A stretch of 33,319 bases of DNA from an uncultured Oxalobacteraceae bacterium (GTDB taxonomy: Bacteria > Pseudomonadota > Gammaproteobacteria > Burkholderiales > Burkholderiaceae). Where the stretch lies: positions 1 to 33,319 of the forward strand of contig CAMLDH010000005.1 in NCBI GenBank assembly GCA_946478765.1, read 5' to 3'. Below, piece by piece: positions 2,608 to 27,627 of this stretch; the first letter of the stretch is position 1; each line of letters starts with the position of its first letter. The translations under genes and the position numbers were made by a program. The notes beneath the pieces were generated by a model. That model was given only the letters and a program-made list of their open reading frames with translations. It had not been told where the DNA came from and did no database searches.

Positions 2608-3015
2608 TTAGTCACTTCCCCTATGAGAAGAACTGGCCAACAGGTATGGTGCTCGCTCCATGTCCTCCATGCCGCCGGCGATCACGCAGCGGGACACGCC
2701 CGAGGCGATTTCGGCAAAAGCTGTGGTCACCGCCTGCGCGCCGGAGCCGCAGACACGATTGGCGGTCATAGCCGGTACGTCGACCGGGAGCCCGCCGTGG
2801 ATCGCCGCCTGCCGCGCTACGTTCATGCCGTTGCCGGCCTGCACAACGTTGCCCATAACAACCGAATCGACCAGCACCGGATCGAGCGCCGAACGCCGCA
2901 GCGTCGCCGCAACGGCATGGGCGCCGAGCGCGGCCGCCGACGCGTCCTTCAAGGTCCCGCCGAAGGCGCCGATGGCACTGCGGACCGGGGAACAGATAAC
3001 GATTTCTTTGTCCAT
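2608..3015 (-). pseudogene. Acetyl-CoA acetyltransferase (thiolase), N-terminal fragment
   Basis: About 126 residues match the N-terminus of a type II thiolase (acetyl-CoA C-acetyltransferase), which condenses two acetyl-CoA or cleaves 3-ketoacyl-CoA. The start is well supported by an AGAGGAAAG ribosome-binding site just upstream of the ATG. The nucleophilic cysteine is present in NRVCGSGAQAV at about residue 89, and the GGMEDMERAPYLL segment follows. The family is about 390 residues long; here homology stops at about 2636 and the frame ends at 2608-2610 in foreign sequence next to the IS630 fragment. The C-terminal His/Cys catalytic residues are lost, so the product would be inactive. It lies 83 bases downstream of an SDR relic on the same strand, suggesting a former metabolic operon. 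Confidence 0.8.
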
Positions 3016-3098: not shown

Positions 3099-3431
3099 TT
3101 ACTCCGTCAAGGTCGTGGCGTTCGCGTACCGCGATGCGGCATGTTTAAGGGAGAGCCGGGGGCCAAAGCCGTGGCGTATCGCGTTGCAGGCATCCCAGTC
3201 CTGCGCATCGGGCAAAGACGGGGTCGTGACGGTCTCACCGAGATCCAGGCCGGCCAGCGCCGCATCGACCATCTTTTCCAAGCGTTGCGGATCGGCCCCG
3301 AGCAGTGGGCCGCTCACCGCGACGCCCGCATTGTTCACCAGCAGGCTGATCGTCGGGTCGCTGCTCATGCGCTGGGCGACCAGCGCGACATCGGCGGCGA
3401 CCGTTAGATCGGCTCCCAAGGCAGCAATCAC
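3099..3431 (-). pseudogene. Short-chain dehydrogenase/reductase with internal deletion
   Basis: The reading frame joins two non-adjacent parts of an SDR protein. Residues 1-52 cover the region before and after the NNAG motif (LLVNNAGVAVSGPLLG, motif at residues 33-36). From about residue 54 the sequence becomes the C-terminal tail (VDAALAGLDLGE, then PSLPD and GPRLSLKHAASRYA). The nucleotide-binding TGxxxGIG start and the whole middle with the catalytic Ser and YxxxK are missing. The internal deletion joint is near 3275, and the 5' truncation is near 3432, where an IS5-like scrap begins. The frame remains open, but a protein lacking both cofactor loop and active site cannot be an oxidoreductase. 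It precedes the thiolase relic on the same strand. Confidence 0.75.
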
Positions 3432-3495
3432 AATATCAGTTGTTCACTGCACGGTATGGCAGATCACCAAGGTAACAGATCCTCGTATGCACCTG

Positions 3496-3541
3496 CCCGG
3501 CTTCGTTGACTTTTGCATCATGGACACACAAAGCGTCAAAC
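3496..3541 (+). pseudogene. IS5-family transposase scrap around the first catalytic Asp
   Basis: A short stretch on the plus strand reads CIMDTQSVK, which matches the [IV]-[MV]-D-[ST]-Q-S-V-K motif around the first catalytic Asp of IS5/IS1031-type transposases. Nothing else of the element is recognisable, although the preceding bases back to about 3435 are also unlike any gene. The match ends at about 3540, one or two bases before the stop codon of the histidine kinase on the other strand. The call depends on a single short motif and is tentative. Confidence 0.4.
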
Positions 3542-5707
3542 CTACACCTGATTCTTTTTCAGCCATTGCTCCACGAGATTGAGAATGGTTTTCGACTGGT
3601 AGCTCTTAGCCAGCAAACTCAATTGGCTGGCTAACTGACCGTAGCGCTCGTCGAGTTCGGCTAGATAGGCTGCCCGCTGCAGAATGGCTTGCATGTTTCC
3701 CAGCTTGGCCAGATGATGCAGTATCTCCATCTCCTCCGCCGGCGGCATCACTAGCAACTTGGTCGTCTCGGATTCCGGAGACGCTTTTTCTCTCGGCAAG
3801 GCATAGGTCCAGTCCAGCTGCAGCATCAGCGAGATCTGCCCGAGAAGCGCATTCAGATCAATCGGTTTCGGCAGGAAAGCATTCGCACCGGCGCGCGCGC
3901 TTTTTTCATGATCGCTGCTGGTCACACTGGCTGACACTACAATGATCGGCACGTTCTGGAAAGCCGCCAGTCGTCGCAGGTGGAGCGTGGCTTCCAGTCC
4001 ATCCATCTCCGGCATCACGATGTCCATTAAGATCAAGTGCGGCAGCAGGTTTTGGGCAATTTCCAGCGCTTCGCGGCCATTCGCCGCCTCGACCACCTCG
4101 AACCCGAGCGGCTTGAGCATGTCGGCCACCAGCGCTCGATCCTCGGCCAGATCGTCCACTACCCGGAGTTGCAGGCGCGGCCCCTGGTAGCCGGTCACAA
4201 TCCTCCTGGTCATTGCCGTGGCCGTTTCGGCCACCACCACCGGCACCTCCAGTTCGAACCAGAAGGTGCTGCCCTGCCCGAGCACGCTCTCGACCTGGAT
4301 ATCACCTCCCATCCGGCGCACATATTGTCTGCTGATGCTCAGGCCCAGGCCAGTGCCGCCGAGACGGCGTTGCGCATCGCCCACCTGTTCGAAAGGCTGG
4401 AAGATGGTGTCCAGTTCAGCCACATCAATGCCGCTTCCAGTATCCCGCACCTCGAAGCGCAGCCGGGCGGACGGTGTAACGCGCACCTGCAGCATCACTT
4501 GGCCGCGGTCGGTGAATTTGATGGCATTGGACAACAGGTTGAGCAGCACTTGCCGCAGCAGCTTTTCATCGATCCTGCCCCATTGCGGCACATCCGGCGC
4601 GATATCGCAGATGAACTTCAGGCCCTTCTGCTCCGCTTTCACCCTGATCATCTCGACAATGATGTGTATGAACTGGGCGAGCTGGATGTCGCTCCGGCAA
4701 AGACTTGTCTTGCCGGCTTCGATCTTCGCGACATCCAGGATATCGTTGATGAGCATCAGCAGATGCTCGCCGCTTTGCCGGATCACGTTTACCCCTGTGT
4801 GCTGCCGGTCATCCAGACTCTTGTCCTGCTGCATGATCTGGGCGTAACCCAGAATGCCGTTGAGCGGCGTGCGCAGCTCATGGCTCATGTTGGCCAGGAA
4901 GGCGCTCTTGGCCTGGCTCGCTGCTTCGGCCTTATCGCGGGCCAACAGCAATTCCGCCGTACGCTGTTGTACTGTTTCCTCCAGCTGTTCCTTGTGAAGC
5001 CTCTGCATTTCTTCATGCTTTTGGATCGCTCCCATCATGGCGTTGAAGCTTTGGCCCAGCCGGGCCACTTCGTCGGTGCCGGTGGTCGGCACTCGCTGGT
5101 GGTAATCGGCTCGTGAACGGACTTGTTCGACTGTCCTGGCCAGTGTGGAGATGGGGCGGACGATGGCTTGCTGGAGCGCTGCCAGCAGCCCCAGGGTAAC
5201 CATCCCTAACAGGACAGCCATGCCTGCGGCAAACACCAGCAAGGTATTGCGGGTCTGGCGGTTGATTTCATCCAGGTTCATGGCAAGGTACAAGTGCGCA
5301 CCATTTTGCAGGTTCTGAATCAAAACGACGGCATTCCGGTCCATATCGACATAAACATCATCGGATTTGGCCGGAGGGATAGCTATTTTCGCGAAAGGCC
5401 GAATGCTGTAGCGGGCCAGGACCCTGTCATCCTCCAGGTTGATCCTAGCTTCCAGGATTTGCGGGTTGGCCCTTAAGGTATCGAGAATTTCCTGGGCGCG
5501 TGCGGCGTCCTCAAAGGCGACCGCTGCTTCTGCGCCAACGGAAACCAGTTGCGCATAAGGCGCCATGACTTGCCGGGCGCGGCTTTCCAGCGTGAACCGT
5601 TCAAACAGCACAAATGCCGCGCTCGCTGCGGCAAAGGCCAGCAGTGCCGCGATAAACAGCACCAGTACAAGTTTTCCGCGAATGGTGATCCGCCGAAACA
5701 TGATCAT
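3542..5707 (-). CDS. Membrane hybrid histidine kinase with CHASE8-like sensor region and receiver
   Basis: A 721-residue inner-membrane sensor kinase, third gene of the TonB receptor-yfiR-kinase operon. Transmembrane helix 1 is at about 12-36, a periplasmic region at 37-153 resembles CHASE8-type sensors (the kind found in YfiN), and transmembrane helix 2 is at about 154-180. A HAMP region (181-235) and coiled linker follow. HisKA has [10 protein letters not shown] with phospho-acceptor His276. The ATPase domain has N394, the G1 box DTGSGI (422-427) and GGTGLGL (450-456). The receiver (about 512-630) has an acidic pair VVDD, phospho-acceptor Asp562 in [13 protein letters not shown], and Lys614. 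A helical tail of about 90 residues follows and has no recognisable Hpt histidine. The ATG at 5707 overlaps the yfiR stop by four bases (ATGA); an in-frame upstream extension would lie inside yfiR and is rejected. All phosphorelay residues are intact. No separate DNA-binding regulator is nearby. Confidence 0.9.
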
Positions 5708-6300
5708 CGCCAATTCTTCACGATCCCATTCTCCACGACGTCCCGGGAGACTTCCAGCATCTTGGTCTGTATCGCCAGGGAGGCGGAACGTGCCTGATCG
5801 AGGTTGATGTTCATTTCCACCCGATCCCCGATTTGGAACTGGATGATTCCGCCTTCCTGCAAAAAGTCGGGCGCATCGCTCACCGTCAGGACCGGCGACT
5901 TTTTCAATTCCGCAAGGGCGGCACGGCGTTTTGCGGCATCCTTGTACGCGATATAGACAATCTGGCATCGGGGCAATTCATTCAGGGTTTCCGCGCGAAA
6001 AACTTGAAATGCACGGCCCTGTTCGAAGCGTCCTGCCACGGTTTTATCGAGGATGTCACCAAAGGGATCGTTGCCCAGAATACAGATTCGCCAAGGAGAA
6101 TGATCATCGGCGAAAGCATCGGCCGGCCAACTCACATAGCGGGTGAAATTGCGTAGAAAAGCGGCCTTGACCTTGTTCGGGGACGCCGTCACCACTTCCT
6201 GGGCTACGGCAAGCTTCGGCAGAGGCAGCATGAGCAGCAGGGCAATGACCCATTGACCAAGAACACGGGAATAGCAAGCAGCTTTTAGGGATACCCCCAC
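5704..6300 (-). CDS. YfiR-family (DUF4154) periplasmic protein
   Basis: A 198-residue exported protein of the YfiR / DUF4154 family. A signal peptide covers about residues 1-33, with hydrophobic core VIALLLMLPLP and likely cleavage after AVA. The mature part shows the family landmarks: KAAFLRNFTRYVSWP near the N-terminus, ILGNDPFG, and a C-terminal VLTVSDAPDFLQEGGIIQF followed by MNINLDQARSASL. In Pseudomonas aeruginosa, YfiR is a periplasmic repressor that binds the CHASE8-containing cyclase YfiN. Here the likely partner is the CHASE8-like kinase encoded next, whose ATG overlaps this stop codon. The proposed GTG start lies two bases after the receptor stop, so translation is probably coupled; no strong ribosome-binding site is visible. 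Two cysteines remain in the mature part. The exact ligand and the sign of regulation are not visible. Confidence 0.85.
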   Translation of the reverse strand: MGVSLKAACYSRVLGQWVIALLLMLPLPKLAVAQEVVTASPNKVKAAFLRNFTRYVSWPADAFADDHSPWRICILGNDPFGDILDKTVAGRFEQGRAFQVFRAETLNELPRCQIVYIAYKDAAKRRAALAELKKSPVLTVSDAPDFLQEGGIIQFQIGDRVEMNINLDQARSASLAIQTKMLEVSRDVVENGIVKNWR

Positions 6301-6302
6301 CG

Positions 6303-8828
6303 TCAGAATCCGGCCGTGAACGTCAGAAGGAATTCGCGGGGACGCGAGCGCGTGCTTTGCGAAGGACGATAATGTTCGTTGGCAAGGTTCTTACCCATAA
6401 GATCCAGTCGCATCTTCTGGCCATGCCATTTCCATTCGTAGCCGACTGCCGCATTGAGGAGCGTATAGGTCTGGTGAGAGGACTCCGGCGTATCAGGCAG
6501 GATCGTCTGGTCGCGCACATAATTAATACCGCCAGCGACGTAAGCCCCCCGGAGCTTGCCTTGCGTGAAGTTGTAGCGCGTCCACACGTTTGCAATGTCC
6601 GGCGCACTCATTTGCAACGGGGCGTTGTGCAACAGGTTGACCGTCTTGTAATTCGCCTGCCCGGCGGCATCGAGCGTGGCCGGATTCTGGGCGAGGATGG
6701 CAGCGTCGTTGCCGCTGAATTCGGTGATGCGCGCCTTCATGTGGCTGTAGGAGAGATAGATCTGCCAGTTGTCGCTGGGCGTGACGGTGGCATCCAGTTC
6801 GACGCCGCGGGAGCGCTGCTCGCCGCTTTGGACGTTGTAAAACTTCTGGGCTCCGGTGCTCGGATCCAGGTAGGTCAAATCATTGACGATGTTTTTGTTG
6901 CGGATATCGAACAAGGTCAACGTGCCGGACAGCCGGCGATCGAACAGATCCGCCTTGATACCCAAGTCGTAGCCCTTGCCCTGAGTGGGTTTGGCGGGCG
7001 AGGTGCTGCCGTCGAGATTGTTGAGGATCTGTGAGCCGGGGACGAAGGATTCGGCGTAGGAAGAAAACAGCGACAGCTCCGGCGTCAGCTTGTAGAGTGC
7101 GCCGTATTGCGGCGTGACTGCGCTGGCTGTGATTGCGGGCTGCGTCTGGCCGGTCAGGTGGTTGGTGAGCTGGCTTTCTGTCTTCGTCTGACGCCAGCCA
7201 GCCAGCACCAGCAGGCGGTCTTTGAAGAAACCGAAGGTGCTGCCCGCGTAAATGGATTTGTCCACGTAGTGAGTAGTCTGGTCGGTTGGGTTCGCGGTAA
7301 GCGCGGAGATCGGAATCGTGACGTTGCGGTTCCAAGTGGAGGGATCGGCGAGATTCCAGAGCGGAAGCGGGGATGCTGTGGGGTTGCTGCCGAGCGCCGG
7401 GTCGTTGGGCGCCTGGGCGGCCCAGTTGTTGAAACTGCGGTCGACATATTGCATGCCGAGGAGCAGGCGCAGACTCGTGTCGCCGAATTCATACTTACCG
7501 GTGCCCTGGACTTCGTAGGTGTCGTCCGAGTTGTCGTATATTTGGCGCCTGAAACGGCGCCCCTGGAGGAGCGTCGTGTTGTTGGCCATACCGCCGTTGC
7601 CCGAGAAGAGCAAGTCGGTCTTGTACTTCTGGTGAGCATAGGCGGCGCGCAGGTTCCAGTGATCGTCGGCCTTCACGTCAATCCACGTGCTCAGGCCGTC
7701 CGCGTCACTGTGCCGGAAGTCGACGTAGGACGCAGTGTTCCAGGTATCGGGCAGGCCGGGCACGTCGACACCCGAGAGATTGGGGTCGGCCGGGGTCGGC
7801 ACGACGCCGGCCTGGCGGTTGTAGCCTGGCTTCTGCTGGAGTTGCGGCGACTCGATCTTGCGGAAGTTCTCGTACTTAAGCGATACGCTGACTCGCTCAT
7901 TGGGGCGCCAGAGCAGCGACGGTGAGATGTTGCGGGTGTGGGCATCGTAAGGTTCCCAGTAGTGCATGTCCTGGTCGTAGGAGGTCGCAAGCCGGTAAGA
8001 CAAGGTTTTCGACGCCGGTCCGGTCACGTCGGCATCGGCATGGTATTCGCCGTAGGAACCATAACGGGCATTGGCCGTTGCGGCGAACTGGGGCTGCGGG
8101 CTCTTGGTGATGACGTTGACGATACCGCCGGGAGCGACCTGGCCGTACAGAAACGAGGCCGGACCTTTAACCACCTCCACGCGCGAGATGTTGGTGAAGT
8201 CGAGAATCGAAGGGCCGTGCCAGCCGTCGCGCAGGATCTGGACGTTGCCGGGGGTGGCGCTGACGGCGAAGCCGCGAATGGCGAGGTTGGCGTTGCCCTC
8301 TGTGCCATCGTTGCTGCGGTAGGTGACACCTGGCGAGTAGCGCGCAATGTCGAAGATGTTCACCGGCTTCTGGTCTTCGATAAAGGATTCGGTAAAGGCC
8401 TGGATGGCAAATGGCAATTCGCGAATCGGCGCATCGAAGCGTGAGCCGGATACGGAGTTAGAGGCGCGGTAACCCTTGTCTAGAAAAGAGGAAACCTCGA
8501 AGGGAGAGACCCTGACTTTCACCAGCTCTGCGATGTCCAGGTCGGCCACATCTTGCCCATTCCCTAGCTGCGCTAAAACAACAGGGCGAGCGGATGGATG
8601 AGCATAGGCCGGCATGTTGGCAACCGTTGCGGAGCGCTTGGCGATGCTGGCAGGCTGGGCCATATCCGGCGCCGTAAAACCCTTTGTCTCGCTGTTAGTG
8701 AGTGGATTTTGGGGGGGATCGGCAAGAATGTCCGCGATTGCGAAAGGCAAGTTCCAAAGCAACAAACATGGCGCTACAGCAACCGTGAACATCACGCGCA
8801 TGACGGAATGATGCTCGAAATGATTCAT
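6303..8828 (-). CDS. TonB-dependent outer-membrane receptor (siderophore-receptor type)
   Basis: An 841-residue outer-membrane receptor, first gene of the three-gene sensory operon. An N-terminal signal peptide (about 1-32) is followed by a Pro-rich linker and a pre-plug segment VSPFEVSSFLDKGYRASN. The plug domain (about 125-245) includes the siderophore-receptor-like DAPIRELPFAIQAFT, an IRGF motif, and VEVVKGPASFLYGQVAPGG, then VNVITKSP. The rest reads as a 22-stranded barrel ending in the C-terminal Phe (FLLTFTAGF) recognised by the BAM machinery. The ATG at 8828 is preceded by GGAGG at a good distance; 13 extra upstream codons would be antisense to an IS4 remnant and are excluded. Substrate specificity cannot be read from the sequence. 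Only about 15 bases separate the start codon from foreign IS sequence, so the native promoter seems to be lost. Confidence 0.92.
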   Translation of the reverse strand: MNHFEHHSVMRVMFTVAVAPCLLLWNLPFAIADILADPPQNPLTNSETKGFTAPDMAQPASIAKRSATVANMPAYAHPSARPVVLAQLGNGQDVADLDIAELVKVRVSPFEVSSFLDKGYRASNSVSGSRFDAPIRELPFAIQAFTESFIEDQKPVNIFDIARYSPGVTYRSNDGTEGNANLAIRGFAVSATPGNVQILRDGWHGPSILDFTNISRVEVVKGPASFLYGQVAPGGIVNVITKSPQPQFAATANARYGSYGEYHADADVTGPASKTLSYRLATSYDQDMHYWEPYDAHTRNISPSLLWRPNERVSVSLKYENFRKIESPQLQQKPGYNRQAGVVPTPADPNLSGVDVPGLPDTWNTASYVDFRHSDADGLSTWIDVKADDHWNLRAAYAHQKYKTDLLFSGNGGMANNTTLLQGRRFRRQIYDNSDDTYEVQGTGKYEFGDTSLRLLLGMQYVDRSFNNWAAQAPNDPALGSNPTASPLPLWNLADPSTWNRNVTIPISALTANPTDQTTHYVDKSIYAGSTFGFFKDRLLVLAGWRQTKTESQLTNHLTGQTQPAITASAVTPQYGALYKLTPELSLFSSYAESFVPGSQILNNLDGSTSPAKPTQGKGYDLGIKADLFDRRLSGTLTLFDIRNKNIVNDLTYLDPSTGAQKFYNVQSGEQRSRGVELDATVTPSDNWQIYLSYSHMKARITEFSGNDAAILAQNPATLDAAGQANYKTVNLLHNAPLQMSAPDIANVWTRYNFTQGKLRGAYVAGGINYVRDQTILPDTPESSHQTYTLLNAAVGYEWKWHGQKMRLDLMGKNLANEHYRPSQSTRSRPREFLLTFTAGF

Positions 8829-8844
8829 ATGGCCTCCGCCTAGA

Positions 8845-9340
8845 GCGGCTCTACCTCGCTTCGTCACCGCATCAAGCGCTGCGATCGCTTATTAGGCAAC
8901 AGCAAGCTGGAGCAGGAGCTGCACTAGATCTATGGCGCGATGGCGCAACGCATATTGTAAAGCATGGCACAACCGCTGATCATTGTCGACTGGTCCGATC
9001 TCTACCCCTGACCGAAGTCAGCAGTTGCTGCGGGCGGCACTGATTGTGCAGGGACGGGCATTGACCTTACACGAAAAAGTGCCCCCTCACGCGCGGCCTC
9101 GCTCAACGTGCACCGCGCCTATTTGAAGCGTCTGCAAGCCCTCCTGCTCTTGAAATGCCAACCAGTCTTCATCAGCGATCGCACAGTAAAAAGCAAGCCC
9201 GGGCACAAAAGGAACTGTGGCTGCTCGCCGTCTCGCCACAGCTTGCTGCGCTCGATGCCAAGGCAATAGTGGCGATCTATGCCGGGCGCATGCAAATCGA
9301 ACAGACCTTTCGTGACGTAAATTGCGCGAACCACTATGTT
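8845..9340 (+). pseudogene. IS4-family transposase remnant
   Basis: A heavily damaged DDE transposase. Plus-strand readings in different frames give HRIKRCDRLLGN (from about 8865), then MAQPLIIVDWSDL with the first catalytic Asp (from 8964), then PDRSQQLLRAALIVQGRALTL, LNVHRAYLKRLQALL, CQPVFISD with the second Asp, and finally ELWLLAVSPQLAALDAKAIV plus YAGRMQIEQTFRD with the catalytic Glu. Stops and frameshifts separate these pieces: a TAG near 8926, a TAA near 8957, and a frameshift plus TGA near 9007. A deletion after about 9180 removes the segment between the second Asp and the Glu region. Its left end touches the ribosome-binding site of the TonB receptor gene on the opposite strand. Confidence 0.75.
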
Positions 9341-9350
9341 GTAGTGCTCT

Positions 9351-9444
9351 AACGTAAAGCCATCAGGGAAATAAACGTAATGGCATCGGGTAATTCAATT
9401 TCGTGAAATTCTGTTTTTCCCCGGTGCCTTTACGCCTTTACGTT
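9351..9444. repeat. 94-bp AT-rich segment bounded by a 9-bp inverted repeat
   Basis: The segment starts with AACGTAAAG (9351-9359) and ends with the exact reverse complement CTTTACGTT (9436-9444). A second CTTTACG lies just inside at 9428-9434. A 14-base palindrome, AATTTCGTGAAATT, sits at 9397-9410. It lies between the IS4 remnant and the IS630 N-terminal fragment and contains no reading frame. It could be an end of a lost insertion sequence or a small non-autonomous element; no flanking duplication was identified. Confidence 0.35.
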
Positions 9445-9497
9445 TTCCAACAAAACGATTTCTTTTCTCGCTCGAACGCGCGCCCTTCCCCCCCCCC

Positions 9498-9737
9498 CAT
9501 CAACGGCTGACGAACGCAGTGGACGCCGTCCTGTTCAAATGCTCGCAAGTCTGCGTAAATCGTATTGACGTGACTACCGAGCCCGTCGGCAATCGTGGAT
9601 GCTTCCACACCAGCCCCATGCAGCAAAATCGCTTCGATACGGCGCCGTTGCCGGGCATTGCAATCCGCCTCAAGTGCTGAATGCAATCGGCGAAGCGCCG
9701 AAGCACGGGGCTGGCGAACCTTTACTGAGCGTGCCAT
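9498..9737 (-). pseudogene. IS630-family transposase, N-terminal fragment
   Basis: From the ATG at 9737, with AAGGAGA about eight bases upstream, the minus strand encodes MARSVKVRQPRASALRRLHS followed by a helix-turn-helix region that includes GAGVEASTIADGLGSHVNTIY and DLRAFEQDGVHCVRQPL. This is the N-terminal winged-helix region of an IS630-family transposase. After about 79 residues, homology stops at a run of eleven C (9488-9498 on the plus strand) and the frame goes on into unrelated sequence to 9438. The next part of the same protein type appears at 2359-2598. The promoter-side start signals look intact, but without the DDE domain the product cannot transpose. Confidence 0.7.
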
Positions 9738-10584: not shown

Positions 10585-10598
10585 GGCCAATAGACACC
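10585..10598. repeat. Target-site duplication, left copy
   Basis: GGCCAATAGACACC directly precedes the left inverted repeat of the complete insertion sequence and is repeated exactly at 12152-12165 after the right inverted repeat. Fourteen bases is at the long end of the range known for IS4-type elements. One or two bases at the edge could belong to the inverted repeat instead. Confidence 0.85.
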
Positions 10599-12151
10599 AG
10601 CCCTGTCAATGTGAGTCGATTTGCCTGAAATCATCGAATTTCAGTGCGCCGATGGCAGTCCAATCCGCATTGCCTCTGGACTGGAGCCTCCCATGCGCGC
10701 TGCTGCCCCCAAACAATCCTCGCGTGCCGCCGATCCCGCCTTGCTGATGCCGCCGGCATTGGCGTGTCCGCGCGCGCTCGCGCCTTTCCTGCGCCGCGCC
10801 CCAGTGCCCGTGCTGGTGCGCTCCTGCCTCGAATGGATGCTCGCGCAGGCCGACCTGAACGCCTTGTTCGACCACACCGCGCAAGAGCAATATACGCGCT
10901 CCCTCACGCTCGATTTCCTCGTTGACCTCCTGCTCGACGTGGCTTGCGGCGCTCAGCCTTCGGCTCATGCCGCCCTCAAGGCCCGGCGCGAGCAGATCGA
11001 CATTTCCCGGCAAGCCTTCTATGCCAAGCTGGCCCGCATGGAATTGCCCGTCTCCGAAGCCGTCGCCGCCCGCTTCGCCGACTTGGCCGAGACGGTCATG
11101 GCGCATGGCGGCTTCGCCGGCAGCGAACCCATTGCCGGCTTTGCCGCGCACGTGCTCGACGGCACCGTGCTGGGCGGGCGCACCGAGCATCGCCTCGCCC
11201 CGCTGCGCGGGCTGCGCGCCGCCGGCCTGACCGGCCATGCGCTGGCCGTCTATGCCCCGGCTCGGCGCACGGTGCGGCAATTGGTGCTCGACGAGGATGC
11301 CTACACCCAGGAGCGCGCGCTGCTGCCCCGGGTGCGGGTGCAGGCGGGCGAAGTGTGGATCGCCGACCGCCATTTCTGCGTGCGGTCGTTCCTGTTCCGT
11401 CTGCAGCGGCAAGGCGCCGCCTGCGCCATCCGCTGGCATGCGCAAAACTGTCCGTTCGAGGAACTCGCGCCGCTGGCGAGCGCGCCCGGCAGCACGCAGG
11501 GCGCGCTGGAACAGCTGGTGCGGCTGACCGATCCGGACACCGGCGAGCCCATGACGGTGCGCCGCATCGTGCTGCCGCTGGCCAAGCGCACACGCAACGG
11601 CGATGCCGAACTGATCCTGGCGACGACGCTGCCGCAGACCATCGGCGCCGACGTCATCTGCAACGCCTACCGCGAGCGCTGGCAAATTGAAACCCATTTC
11701 CAGCGCCTGACCGAGCAATTGCACTGCGAACCGCCCGCGCTGGACATGCCGCGCGCGGCCTTGTTTGCGTTCGCCATGGCGAGCGTGGCCGGCAACGCGC
11801 TGGCGCTGGTGCTGGCCGCGCTGCAGGCCGCGCATGGCGAGGAGGCGGTGCGGGAGCTGTCGTATTACTTCTTCGTGCTGGAGGTTTCCCAGATCTGGCT
11901 GGGCATGGAAGTGGCCGTGCCGCCGCAAGAGTGGGACTTCATCCGTGCGGCGACAGCCGAAACGCTGGCCGACTGGCTGCTCGCACTGGCACGCCACGCC
12001 GACATGGCGTACTTCCGGCGCAGCCGACGCGGACCGAAGAAGCCGCCGGCGAAGAAGCCCGCCGACGGGCGCACCCACGTCTCCAACAAACGCATGATCG
12101 AGGAAGCGTTGCAGCGCCCAGTTAACTATAAAAACTCACATTGACAGGGCT
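10599..12151 (+). mobile_element. Complete IS4-type insertion sequence (1553 bp)
   Basis: The element is bounded by a perfect 18-bp inverted repeat: AGCCCTGTCAATGTGAGT at 10599-10616 and its reverse complement at 12134-12151. It is flanked by a 14-bp direct repeat (10585-10598 and 12152-12165). It carries one intact transposase gene that fills nearly its whole length. Its coding strand is markedly GC-rich compared with the AT-rich DNA to its right. Intact ends, intact gene and identical target copies all point to a recent insertion, the latest event in this accessory zone. The target appears to be an already decayed GAF-domain gene on the minus strand. Confidence 0.92.
10621..12144 (+). CDS. 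IS4-type DDE transposase
   Basis: A 507-residue transposase with no interruption, encoded within the complete insertion sequence. Catalytic residues are visible: Asp180 in HVLDGTVLGG, Asp249 in VWIADRHFC, and Glu347 in YRERWQIETHF. The last agrees with the Y-x2-R-x3-E part of the IS4 YREK signature, with Thr at the place of the distal Lys. The C-terminus is basic (RRSRRGPKKPPAKKP), as often seen in DNA-binding tails. The proposed start is TTG at 10621, five bases after the inverted repeat, with no clear ribosome-binding site; the ATG at 10693 (residue 25) is a reasonable alternative. The stop codon lies inside the right inverted repeat. The residues and the intact ends suggest it may be active. 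Confidence 0.88.
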   Translation: MPEIIEFQCADGSPIRIASGLEPPMRAAAPKQSSRAADPALLMPPALACPRALAPFLRRAPVPVLVRSCLEWMLAQADLNALFDHTAQEQYTRSLTLDFLVDLLLDVACGAQPSAHAALKARREQIDISRQAFYAKLARMELPVSEAVAARFADLAETVMAHGGFAGSEPIAGFAAHVLDGTVLGGRTEHRLAPLRGLRAAGLTGHALAVYAPARRTVRQLVLDEDAYTQERALLPRVRVQAGEVWIADRHFCVRSFLFRLQRQGAACAIRWHAQNCPFEELAPLASAPGSTQGALEQLVRLTDPDTGEPMTVRRIVLPLAKRTRNGDAELILATTLPQTIGADVICNAYRERWQIETHFQRLTEQLHCEPPALDMPRAALFAFAMASVAGNALALVLAALQAAHGEEAVRELSYYFFVLEVSQIWLGMEVAVPPQEWDFIRAATAETLADWLLALARHADMAYFRRSRRGPKKPPAKKPADGRTHVSNKRMIEEALQRPVNYKNSH

Positions 12152-12165
12152 GGCCAATAGACACC
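12152..12165. repeat. Target-site duplication, right copy
   Basis: GGCCAATAGACACC, identical to 10585-10598, follows the right inverted repeat of the complete insertion sequence directly. Confidence 0.85.
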
Positions 12166-12811: not shown

Positions 12812-15685
12812 ATGGAAATCATCATGATGGTAGCTAGAGCAACACCCACATCATCAATCTCAGCTTGGCTCGGAACGCATATGAACGCACCTGTGGACAT
12901 CTTTGCTGTGAAGAGATGTATGAGCACGACCTCAGACCTGCTCGCGACAAACAAGCGCTTGATCTTGGCGCTTGAAAGCGCACGTCAAGTCGCCTTCGAC
13001 TGGCTCATTCTCGAAGACAAGCTTTACTTCAGCAGCGAGCTTGGCGACAGTTTCAAGGATTTGCCTATCGATACCGGCAGGACTTGGCGTTCAAATGAAC
13101 TACCTGCGCTCATGCACGAGGATGATAAAGAAATTTTTCGCACCCATTTGCATCATGCACTCAAGGGAAGCAACGATACGGAGGATGCCGTCTATAGAGT
13201 GGAGGTGCGTCTGATCGATGCTTCAGGCGGATGGCGCTGGGTCGATATCGGCGGCAAGATCGTGGAACGCGACAATAAAGGCCGCGCACTGCGCATGGTG
13301 GGAACCTTTTCCGACATCGATGAACGCAAGCAGGCGGAGAAAAGAATTGCGCGATTGCGCGATCTCTATGCCGCACTCAGTCAAACAAATCAGGCCATCG
13401 TACGTATCGACAATCAGGATGCACTATTCCACGAAATTTGCCGGATTGCAGTCGATCATGGCCACTTTCATATGGCGTGGATCGGCATGGTCGACGAGCA
13501 TAGCAAACAGGTCATGCCAGTCGCTTCTTACGGTAGCGGCCTTGATGTATTGCAGAAAGCCATGGCGTCAATCGATGCATCAAAGCGCGAGAGTTGCGGA
13601 CCGATCGGCACAGCGATCAGAGAGAACCGGCCAGTCATCTGCAATAACATCTTCAATGCCCATCAGTCGGAATTCTGCGCTGAAATTGCCGCGCAATCCG
13701 GCTTCCACGCGATTGCCAGTTTTCCTTTTCAACAATTAGGTCGTGCTGTGGGCGCACTCAATCTCCACGTCGCCGAAAAGAATTTTTTCGATGAATCTCT
13801 TATCAGCTTGCTGGAAGAGATGACGAGGGATATTTCATTTGCGGTTCATAACTACGCGCGTGAATCGCAGCGTGAAGCAATGGAAAATGCGCTGGTTGAA
13901 AGCGAACGATTCAAGAGCGCCATTCTTACCGCCGCACTTGATTGCATCATTTCCATTAATCATGAAGGTGAAATCATCAGTTTCAACCAGGCTGCGGAAC
14001 GTACCTTCGGCTATCGCAGCAAAGACATATTGGGTCAAAAACTCGCGGATGTCATTGTGCCGCCCGAGTGGCGCGAAAAACATCGACAAGGCATGGCACG
14101 CTTTCTTCAGACTGGTGAAAGCACCCTCCTCAACCGCCGTATTGAGCTCACCGCGATGCATGCGGACGGCTCGCTTTTCCCTGTTGAAATGGCGACTGTT
14201 CCGATCCATATCCATGGCAAGCCGATATTTACCGCCTTCATGCGCGACATCTCGGAACTCAAGCAAAGTCAGGAAATCCTCAAGGAGAGTGCGATGCGCT
14301 ACCGCCAGCTTGTCGAATTATCGCCAGAAGCAATCTTCGTGCATCGACAGGACAAGTTCGTTCTCCTCAACCAGGCTGCGGTGCGCATGCTGGGCGCCCA
14401 AACTGCGAGTGAATTGATCGGCAAAGACATAGCTGACTTCATTCATCCGGATTACCGCGCGGCTTCGGGCGAGCATATACGGCAAGCCCAACACAGTTCA
14501 AGCGCAACGCCGTTTCAGGAGCAAATATGGATGCGCCTTGATGGCAGCGAGTTCCATACCGAAGTCGCCGCGACCAAGCTGGTATACGATGGCATGCCCA
14601 CGGTGCAAACCGTGGTACGCGACATCACTGTCCGCAAACGTGCGGAGGAGTTACAACTGGGTCAGAATCGCATTCTGAACATGGTTGCAACCGGCATCGA
14701 ACTGGTAGAAATTCTGAATGCCGTCGCATTGTTTATCGAATCGCAATCCGAGCACGGGTTGTGTTCGATCCTATTGCTTGACCCTGACGGCTCCACCCTG
14801 TCAAACGGCATATCTCCGAGTTTGCCTGATATCTTTCGTCGCGAAATCGACGGTTTGCTGGTCGCGCCGGCAAGCGGCTCATGCGGAACTGCCATATTCC
14901 GGGCCGAACCGGTGATCGTCACCGATATTGCGCATGATCCTGTCTGGGCAACCTGCCGCAATCTCGCGCTTCGTCACGGGCTCAAAGCCTGCTCGTCATG
15001 GCCTATTTTCGGCAAGAACCGGAAGCTATTGGGTACGATAGCGCTTTACTTCCGCGAAGTCATGGCTCCTACCGCCAGGGATTTACAGCTGTTCAGCGTA
15101 TATGCAAATCTCGCCGGCATCGCGATCGAAAGCCGCGCGTCGGAAGAACGGATTCGTTATCTCGCCCACTATGACGGGCTGACCTCGTTACCCAATCGCT
15201 TTTTATTCAAGGAATTTCTCGATCTTGCGTTGCGCAATGCGCAGCGCCATGGAAAACAGTTTGCCGTCTTTTTTCTTGACCTGGATAAATTCAAGGATAT
15301 CAACGATACCCTCGGACATGAGGCGGGCGATCAGGTGTTACGGGAAACAGCCATCCGATTGCGCGGCTGCCTGCGACAAACAGACAAGATCGCGCGCATG
15401 GGCGGCGACGAATTTTACATATTGATCGAAGATTTGGAAGACGGACGTTATGCAGCCGAAGTGGCGCAAAAACTTCTCGAAGAAGCAGCGCGTCCGCTGC
15501 ATATCGGCCGCCATACCTGCCAGTTGAGCGTCAGCATCGGCATCGGCATTTACCCTGACGATGGCCGCAATGGCCAAGCTTTGTTAAAAAATGCAGACTA
15601 TGCGATGTACCGCGCGAAGAACCTGGGCAAGAATGGCTATCAGTTTTATTCAGCTAGCAAAGAAAGTACGACTATTCAAGCTTGA
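12812..15685 (+). CDS. Multi-sensor diguanylate cyclase (PAS-GAF-PAS-PAS-GAF-GGDEF)
   Basis: A 957-residue protein with no clear transmembrane segment, so probably cytoplasmic. It would make cyclic di-GMP from two GTP. Domain reading: PAS with a PAC-like end at about 50-170 (GWRWVDIGGKIVERD, VGTFSDIDERKQAE); GAF at about 185-350; PAS at about 370-490; PAS at about 495-615, ending VVRDITVRKRAEE; GAF at about 630-775; GGDEF at about 785-945. The GGDEF starts with YDGLTSLPNRFLF and FFLDLDKFKDINDTLGH, has an intact GGDEF signature at 864-868, and an upstream RxxD inhibitory site at 855-858. It should therefore be active and feedback-inhibited. No EAL domain is present. The start is uncertain: ATG codons at 12824, 12881 and 12917 are also possible, the last with AAGAGA just upstream. 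It is convergent with pnp, with a shared terminator. Confidence 0.92.
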   Translation: MEIIMMVARATPTSSISAWLGTHMNAPVDIFAVKRCMSTTSDLLATNKRLILALESARQVAFDWLILEDKLYFSSELGDSFKDLPIDTGRTWRSNELPALMHEDDKEIFRTHLHHALKGSNDTEDAVYRVEVRLIDASGGWRWVDIGGKIVERDNKGRALRMVGTFSDIDERKQAEKRIARLRDLYAALSQTNQAIVRIDNQDALFHEICRIAVDHGHFHMAWIGMVDEHSKQVMPVASYGSGLDVLQKAMASIDASKRESCGPIGTAIRENRPVICNNIFNAHQSEFCAEIAAQSGFHAIASFPFQQLGRAVGALNLHVAEKNFFDESLISLLEEMTRDISFAVHNYARESQREAMENALVESERFKSAILTAALDCIISINHEGEIISFNQAAERTFGYRSKDILGQKLADVIVPPEWREKHRQGMARFLQTGESTLLNRRIELTAMHADGSLFPVEMATVPIHIHGKPIFTAFMRDISELKQSQEILKESAMRYRQLVELSPEAIFVHRQDKFVLLNQAAVRMLGAQTASELIGKDIADFIHPDYRAASGEHIRQAQHSSSATPFQEQIWMRLDGSEFHTEVAATKLVYDGMPTVQTVVRDITVRKRAEELQLGQNRILNMVATGIELVEILNAVALFIESQSEHGLCSILLLDPDGSTLSNGISPSLPDIFRREIDGLLVAPASGSCGTAIFRAEPVIVTDIAHDPVWATCRNLALRHGLKACSSWPIFGKNRKLLGTIALYFREVMAPTARDLQLFSVYANLAGIAIESRASEERIRYLAHYDGLTSLPNRFLFKEFLDLALRNAQRHGKQFAVFFLDLDKFKDINDTLGHEAGDQVLRETAIRLRGCLRQTDKIARMGGDEFYILIEDLEDGRYAAEVAQKLLEEAARPLHIGRHTCQLSVSIGIGIYPDDGRNGQALLKNADYAMYRAKNLGKNGYQFYSASKESTTIQA

Positions 15686-27057: not shown

Positions 27058-27627
27058 ATGGCAACCGACAAAGAACTTTCCGACTTCCTCGAAAATGTAG
27101 AGCGCCGCGCATTCAAGCAGGCTGTATACGCCGTCCGCAAGGATGAGGCGGCGCTCGACATAGTGCAAGATGCAATGATCAAACTGGCCGAGAAGTATGG
27201 CGACAAGCCTCCGGCCGAATTGCCTTTGCTGTTTCAACGCATTCTGCAAAATACCATTCACGATTTCTTCCGCCGGGAAAAAGTACGCAATACCTGGGTT
27301 AGTCTTTTTTCAAGTCTTGGCGGCGACACAGATGATAGCGAAGACTTCGATCTACTGGAAACTTACGAAGCTAAAAGCGGGTCCCAAGGCTCGGAATCCG
27401 GTGCCGACAAGGTCGAACGCAATCAGGTTCTCGCTGCCATAGATGAAGAAGTACAAAAACTGCCGACGCGTCAACGGGAAGCATTCCTCATGCGTTATTG
27501 GGAAGATATGGATGTAGCCGAAACCGCCGCCGCGATGGGATGCTCTGAAGGCAGTGTGAAAACGCATTGCTCACGAGCAACGCGTGCGTTGGCCCAGGCG
27601 CTGAAGGCCAAAGGAATACACTTATGA
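27058..27627 (+). CDS. ECF-type RNA polymerase sigma factor
   Basis: A 189-residue sigma-70 family factor with only regions 2 and 4. Region 2 (about 15-85) reads AFKQAVYAVRKDEAALDIVQ, DAMIKLAEKYG, then FQRILQNTIHDFFRREKVRN. An acidic and Ser/Gly-rich linker (about 90-125) separates it from region 4 (about 130-185), with LPTRQREAFLMRYWEDMDVAE and the helix-turn-helix AAMGCSEGSVKTHCSRATRAL. The ATG at 27058 has a weak ribosome-binding site. It starts a four-gene block with DUF3619, DUF3106 and RDD proteins; the next gene overlaps its stop by four bases (ATGA). The order sigma factor then one-helix membrane protein suggests that the DUF3619 protein may act as an anti-sigma factor, but this is inference. 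Confidence 0.88.
   Translation: MATDKELSDFLENVERRAFKQAVYAVRKDEAALDIVQDAMIKLAEKYGDKPPAELPLLFQRILQNTIHDFFRREKVRNTWVSLFSSLGGDTDDSEDFDLLETYEAKSGSQGSESGADKVERNQVLAAIDEEVQKLPTRQREAFLMRYWEDMDVAETAAAMGCSEGSVKTHCSRATRALAQALKAKGIHL

Follow-up and report, generated by a model that had tools for sequence, protein, structure and literature searches.

Can a TonB-dependent receptor take the part that YfiB plays in passing a signal from the outer membrane to a YfiR-controlled protein in the inner membrane? The question is raised by a three-gene operon within a 33,319-nt stretch of DNA (here called the window) from an uncultured Oxalobacteraceae bacterium. In Pseudomonas aeruginosa, going by the parts of the two source papers used here, YfiR keeps YfiN repressed through contact with an 'AAVVF' motif in the periplasmic PAS domain of YfiN (PMC3375315), and YfiR is itself captured by YfiB at the outer membrane (PMC3375315, PMC4655355). 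Malone 2012 (PMC3375315) described YfiR with a PAS/HAMP protein as a widespread core fed by differing inputs; the more divergent modules mostly lack YfiB and some have kinase outputs, distant homologues include those of Geobacter and Opitutus, and the input of the YfiB-less modules was left open in the parts used.

The operon and its surroundings

The three genes are read from the minus strand in the order receptor, YfiR, kinase:

6303..8828, minus strand: TonB-dependent receptor, siderophore-receptor-like (841 aa; ATG at 8828, stop at 6303)
5704..6300, minus strand: YfiR-like periplasmic protein, DUF4154 (198 aa; GTG at 6300, stop at 5704)
3542..5707, minus strand: hybrid histidine kinase (721 aa; ATG at 5707, stop at 3542)

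They lie head to tail, with 2 bp between receptor and YfiR and a 4-bp ATGA overlap between YfiR and kinase, and all three frames are intact across 5.3 kb. The receptor start at 8828 is consistent with the aligned N-termini of near homologues. Reading frames and Pfam domains bear out the three-gene layout, coordinates, gap and overlap proposed in the initial annotation; the operon is genuine and intact. The domains assigned there (TonB receptor, YfiR/DUF4154, and CHASE8, HisKA, ATPase and receiver) all score above the curated Pfam cut-offs. It is fair to describe the operon as one in which a TonB receptor stands where YfiB would and the output is a phosphorelay.

Several neighbouring features bear on the origin and expression of the operon:

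2608-3015 and 3099-3431: immediately past the end of the kinase gene, the N-terminal part of a truncated thiolase and a weakly matching SDR-like remnant
8850-9440, plus strand: decayed transposase-like sequence just upstream of the receptor gene (identified by eye)
10597-12153: complete insertion sequence bounded by perfect 20-bp inverted repeats, its 507-aa frame a match to DDE_Tnp_1
12812-15685: intact PAS/GAF-GGDEF protein of 957 aa, ~4 kb upstream of the operon

The operon had been placed in a zone of mostly dead genes. This holds for parts of the flanks, where the thiolase, an SDR piece and transposase pieces are truncated or broken, but not for the full-length ADH, PAS/GAF-GGDEF, pnp, leuA and ilvC/H/I genes; core genes lie beyond the truncated metabolic genes and insertion sequence pieces that surround the operon. 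By eye, broken transposase-like frames seem to start within ~100 bp of the receptor start, and this decayed sequence possibly parts the operon from its native promoter. A consensus scan for one promoter type recovered no sigma-70-like site at 3300-9500 (2.1 expected in shuffled sequence). No response regulator adjoins the operon among the neighbouring frames scanned, in agreement with the earlier observation that an output regulator is not encoded nearby.

The recent arrival also suggested at first was not demonstrated: other contigs carry relatives at 84% (YfiR) and 91% (kinase sensor) identity, and third-position GC is elevated in the genes for receptor and kinase but not in that for YfiR. 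The operon has a GC content of 58.6%, against ~51–54% in the genes to its right, yet this is no clean sign of arrival because the left flank and the insertion sequence region are equally high. A plasmid or recent mobile origin was discarded, as any plasmid DNA match covers at most 11% of the region around the operon. Searches of plasmids returned no match to the receptor at E 1e-60 and three distant hits to YfiR.

Recurrence of the gene order

Two genome sets were searched for YfiR relatives: one class, where 54 of 369 genomes have them, and one order, where 77 of 399 do. Gene neighbourhoods were tallied for 74 YfiR genes, comprising the best-scoring places of the two genome searches, six further loci and three plasmid loci; one locus (L118) duplicates another (L004), leaving 73 distinct places. 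Being top-scoring hits, these genes are a non-random sample biased towards close relatives of the query, and the adjoining receptors, kinases and cyclases were assigned by our own HMMER searches built on the window proteins. Within this sample, a TonB receptor lies directly upstream on the same strand of 46/74 YfiR genes, across differing receptor types, and a kinase or GGDEF protein lies directly downstream of 55/74, all but one of these 55 (54) carrying a CHASE8-like sensor by our own profile. The full trio is present at 36/74 YfiR genes (32 with kinase and four with GGDEF output). The adjacency on which the initial annotation had staked its reading thus recurs in other genomes.

Without a receptor called adjacent, 17/74 YfiR genes have a kinase and 2/74 a cyclase downstream. 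No TonB receptor was called directly upstream of 28/74, and in 17 of these 28 a longer upstream frame is present. Ten such frames were scanned: five yielded ShlB, ZnuA, glycosyltransferase, MCP and UvrA matches, and five were without a Pfam match. For instance, two gammaproteobacterial loci (L003, 8203-9957; L004, 8122-9873) carry a gene of ~584 aa upstream of YfiR that is not a TonB receptor; the L003 gene, the one of the two that was scanned, encodes an ShlB/FhaC-type outer-membrane transporter, so that YfiR may have partners among other outer-membrane proteins. At another locus (L103), a gene for a ZnuA-type periplasmic binding protein (3933-4988) directly precedes YfiR, and a TonB receptor gene lies downstream.

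As background, YfiR was found in the sampled stretch for 2/55 TonB receptor frames from six genomes, or for 8/61 once six YfiR-linked receptors of those genomes, initially omitted, are included. Across three sets of 120 listed homologues, contigs of equal size were shared by 19, 16 and 20 entries pairwise and by six in all three sets, compared with 0.3–0.45 for each pair when a jittered control was used. Over 15 trios, six of which were assembled from equal-sized contigs, pairwise identities in one protein correlate with those in the others (r of 0.84, 0.73 and 0.77); genes of an operon that are inherited together would also be expected to diverge in step. The same order of receptor, YfiR-type gene and third gene is seen on two annotated Sphingobium plasmids, where the annotation reads TonB-dependent receptor, YfiR family protein and ATP-binding protein on one and TonB-dependent receptor and two hypothetical proteins on the other.

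At E≤1e-150, receptors of the window's own class were identified in 8 of 399 genomes of the family of genome G606 (G606 included), a family probably of the Burkholderiales. All eight receptors precede YfiR and then a kinase whose sensor is of the same type. Identity to the window proteins falls from the outside of the cell to the inside, the receptor being the best-conserved part of the trio (60–75%), followed by YfiR (47–60%), sensor (49–58%) and kinase core (27–48%); the receiver is 30–39% identical in six loci and was undetected in two, of which one (L152) runs off its contig. In a FastTree phylogeny, receptors labelled Pelobacteraceae and Deltaproteobacteria form a small group with four others (support 0.98), which joins receptors from Gammaproteobacteria, Sideroxyarcus, Piscinibacter and Rhodoferax (support 0.76). 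These placements, which depend on MAG labels and a weak backbone, hint at a possible transfer of the receptor class between phyla.

Candidate interaction surfaces of the three proteins

Alignments of homologues and Pfam matches highlighted the following elements:

8490..8549, minus strand: residues 94–113 of the receptor, a conserved periplasmic stretch near the N-terminus, directly before the plug
5797..5805, minus strand: N166-L167-D168 of YfiR
5513..5527, minus strand: A61-A-V-A-F65 of the kinase sensor
5405..5587, minus strand: CHASE8 match of the kinase (PF17152; 50.7 bits, cut-off 27), a helix-helix-five-strand region in the structural model
3836..4162, minus strand: receiver domain of the kinase (PF00072, 83.9 bits)

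The kinase matches CHASE8, HAMP, HisKA, HATPase_c and Response_reg above the curated cut-offs. Its layout is TM, CHASE8, TM, HAMP, HisKA, HATPase, REC and a C-terminal helical tail, the membrane helices being predicted. H-box, N-box and G-boxes as well as the acidic, Asp and Lys residues of the receiver can be read in the translation, in support of the earlier statement that the catalytic residues are intact. The CHASE8 match spans profile positions 2–62 of 102 (61 positions; residues 42–102 of a 722-residue reference) and leaves the later part of the domain unmatched. Together with the YfiR-binding motif, this supports the relatedness of the sensor region to CHASE8: A61-A-V-A-F65 matches the 'AAVVF' of YfiN, and A62, V63 and F65 do not vary across an alignment of 38 kinases. 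The sampled loci (window included) contain 61 sensor-profile matches, which were chosen by sensor homology so that some conservation is built in, and not all of which directly adjoin YfiR. In these the Phe is kept in 60; Ala occupies the A62 position in 49, Leu, Val or Ile the V63 position in 59, and Asp the position two residues after the Phe in 59. An AlphaFold2 model from 38 sequences (mean pLDDT 80.7, pTM 0.43) places two long helices, taken as membrane-spanning, on either side of a helix-helix-five-strand domain, with kinase and receiver folds and the helical tail following. A fold search with the whole model returned kinase structures among the best 50 of 1340 and did not inform on the sensor. 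The sensor has 278 relatives; the 120 matches listed include Methylobacter, Gallionella and Geotalea, and outputs among them are HK-REC, PAS-HK-REC, PAS only and, in one case, GGDEF.

The YfiR protein scores 144.8 bits against DUF4154 (PF13689; YfiR/HmsC-like), above the curated cut-off, and aligns over residues 42–186 with the solved P. aeruginosa YfiR (phmmer, 7.7e-05). By our own residue mapping from this alignment, N166-L167-D168, invariant across 45 aligned sequences, correspond to Asn165-Leu166-Asp167 of the P. aeruginosa binding surface, as described in the parts of PMC4655355 used here. C73 and C112 match Cys71 and Cys110; the Cys145-Cys152 pair, which P. aeruginosa YfiR requires for folding, is missing, and a Met is aligned at Phe162. 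Several Arg, Glu and Trp residues are invariant among the 45 sequences of this subfamily outside the known interaction face. Taken together, homology makes a contact between YfiR and the kinase sensor well founded.

The receptor scores 67.6 bits for the Plug and 134.5 bits for the barrel, both above curated cut-offs, and no STN domain was detected (Pfam, E≤1; Plug and barrel alone). Its best model, TIGR01783 (TonB-dependent siderophore receptor), gives 181.4 bits, below the cut-off of 223.5. Of the candidates scored, 874 pass E 0.001 as receptor relatives; the 120 matches listed have 67–89% identity, and those with names are from Burkholderiales, Sideroxyarcus and MAGs labelled Gammaproteobacteria, Pelobacteraceae and Deltaproteobacteria. 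One relative (P0268) has ~60 additional N-terminal residues that by eye look protein kinase-like, perhaps a gene-calling fusion.

In an alignment of 40 sequences, the pre-plug segment follows a variable leader; columns 94, 95, 97 and 98 are at least 90% conserved (column 97 is mostly Met, but Leu in the window) and columns 102, 107, 109, 110 and 112 are invariant. Receptors upstream of YfiR usually carry LxxLSLEELxxIxV at this place, from which the form in the window class, VADxDIxELVxVxVSPF, diverges. A motif set was compiled from the receptors >600 aa among 47 upstream of YfiR, minus two of the window class. A motif score of at least 13 was reached by 38 of these 40 YfiR-linked receptors (leave-one-out) compared with 9/53 receptors counted as not adjoining YfiR, an enrichment computed without control for receptor relatedness; the window receptor, at 13.4, is close to the lower end. 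The control comprised 55 frames from 56 loci in six of eight genomes searched, taken from listed rows in Plug-score order rather than at random and leaving out six places already sampled as YfiR-linked, two at contig ends and the later-listed rows of genome G905. One control frame (L158) is the same receptor as a member of the 40 (L084), is YfiR-linked and stands outside the 53; another (L163) is YfiR-linked without the motif, and a motif-bearing receptor counted among the 53 (L188) has a YfiR gene ~1.9 kb away on the opposite strand. Enriched as it is, the motif was rejected as a hallmark of YfiR partners since those nine others carry it. The segment is a candidate contact with YfiR or, as a TonB-box region, with TonB; in the AlphaFold2 receptor model, plug and N-terminus have a pLDDT below 50 and the segment is not placed.

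A proposed relay of the Yfi type and its alternatives

Like YfiBNR (TpbB), the window operon combines a YfiR-like protein with an adjoining CHASE8/PAS-HAMP membrane signalling protein bearing an AAVxF motif and with an outer-membrane partner. In contrast to YfiBNR, this third gene encodes a TonB receptor instead of the OmpA-like lipoprotein YfiB, the output is HisKA-HATPase-REC instead of a GGDEF diguanylate cyclase, and YfiR is without the Cys145-Cys152 pair. The YfiB-less modules of 2012 are closer, with YfiR, a PAS/HAMP kinase and conserved interaction residues in the parts of PMC3375315 used here, the window YfiR having Met at Phe162; the receptor partner is the added point, the term 'tonb' being absent from the main text of PMC3375315. 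By model name, the NCBIfam set around TOL_0243 and TOL_0244 (NF053591, NF053590, NF053592) assigns the same three roles, of which the window YfiR alone passes its model. It reaches 133.5 for NF053591 (TOL_0243 YfiR-like; cut-off 125), which all 45 aligned YfiR homologues match at E 1e-5, and stays below the NCBIfam YfiR equivalog (35.9 vs. 85). The receptor falls outside NF053590 (TOL_0244 TonB receptor; 41.3 vs. 645), and the kinase N-terminus outside NF053592 (kinase near YfiR-like; 120.2 vs. 194). The kinase output is therefore not peculiar to this locus, YfiR-kinase modules without YfiB (2012) and the NCBIfam receptor-YfiR-kinase set being already known; what is added here is the class of receptor, the conservation of that class and the proposal that a TonB receptor fills YfiB's place. 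The literature searched, mostly at the level of listings, yielded no paper on a TonB receptor-YfiR-kinase operon.

We propose, with a probability of roughly 0.6, that the trio constitutes a single Yfi-type relay that spans the envelope and senses a ligand. Specificity for that ligand would come from the TonB receptor at the cell surface, and YfiR would act as periplasmic go-between, binding the AAVAF face of the CHASE8 domain and locking the kinase into one state. When a ligand docks at the receptor, or TonB drives its transport there, the availability of YfiR would alter, either by capture at the outer membrane, as for YfiB, or by ligand handover, and this change would switch the HAMP-coupled kinase and receiver. 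The step from receptor to YfiR, central to the relay, is one that we infer, and the protein-protein contacts in general, signalling direction, ligand and downstream phosphorelay partner are likewise presumptive. The overlapping genes, the recurrent order, the eight of eight trios, the equal-sized contigs and the correlated identities argue for the relay, as do AAVxF in the kinase and NLD in YfiR, both reported interaction surfaces in P. aeruginosa; the YfiR genes lacking an upstream receptor, the missing Cys145-Cys152 pair, the Phe162-to-Met change and the non-exclusive receptor motif argue against it. On balance, the relay is plausible and better supported than from the sequence alone.

Its main rival, in our estimate somewhat unlikely, is that the receptor merely imports a molecule which YfiR binds before acting on the CHASE8 kinase, much as LuxP acts on LuxQ, with no need for a contact between receptor and YfiR. 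On this view YfiR would be a small periplasmic binding protein; its fold resembles a type I ligand-binding domain, several invariant Arg, Glu and Trp residues lie away from the known interaction face, and the receptor is of a transporter class, all of which would suit ligand delivery. Yet P. aeruginosa YfiR works through protein-protein capture, no YfiR ligand is mentioned in the parts of PMC3375315 and PMC4655355 used here, and the window receptor has a conserved periplasmic N-terminal segment of its own. We consider it improbable that YfiR and kinase sense redox or envelope stress by themselves, the receptor being co-regulated cargo and perhaps a target of the kinase. Such a division is in line with the redox-sensitive, YfiB-independent action described for P. 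aeruginosa YfiR in the parts of PMC3375315 used here, with the Cys71/Cys110 equivalents in the window YfiR and with the receptor-less YfiR genes followed by a kinase or cyclase; the constant pairing of the window's receptor class with YfiR and kinase, the receptor's place as best-conserved part and the TonB receptors of differing types before most YfiR genes sampled speak against it. More doubtful still is a silent, decaying remnant whose frames survive but whose promoter was lost to an insertion sequence ending just upstream. The broken transposase-like frames, the empty promoter scan and the truncated thiolase and SDR neighbours would fit this scenario, against which stand three frames intact over 5.3 kb and the restriction of the scan to one promoter type. 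Moreover, insertion sequences can themselves provide promoters.

Another known way of tying a TonB receptor to gene regulation across the envelope is that of FecA/FpvA-type transducers, which signal with an anti-sigma factor. In contrast to these, the window operon is without a FecR/sigma pair, its receptor being partnered by YfiR and a kinase, and this route is not indicated because no STN domain was found; it was set aside, the sigma factor gene at 27058-27627 being 18 kb off. If the relay holds, a TonB receptor family currently annotated for transport would turn out to sense specific ligands. The receptors directly upstream in many YfiB-less modules are concrete candidates for the input left open in 2012.

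A broader reading, offered tentatively, extends the relay beyond the window. TonB receptors might be general stand-ins for YfiB, their N-terminal segment competing with the AAVxF face for YfiR such that docking switches an inner-membrane kinase or cyclase; the window-class receptor, with near-fixed ligand loops, might have spread between phyla as a module whose cytoplasmic outputs were exchanged. This would constitute a third route for TonB-receptor signalling across the envelope, beside the STN/anti-sigma and SusCD/hybrid-kinase systems. Should the relay itself hold, the strong conservation of the window's receptor class would point to one ligand shared across its bacteria (Sideroxyarcus, Gallionella, Geotalea, Rhodoferax ferrireducens, Methylobacter), names that suggest iron oxidisers or reducers and methane oxidisers.

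GGDEF genes near the trios were set aside as evidence: besides the one in the window, they occur close to four of the eight related trios, and these four represent two seemingly syntenic pairs.
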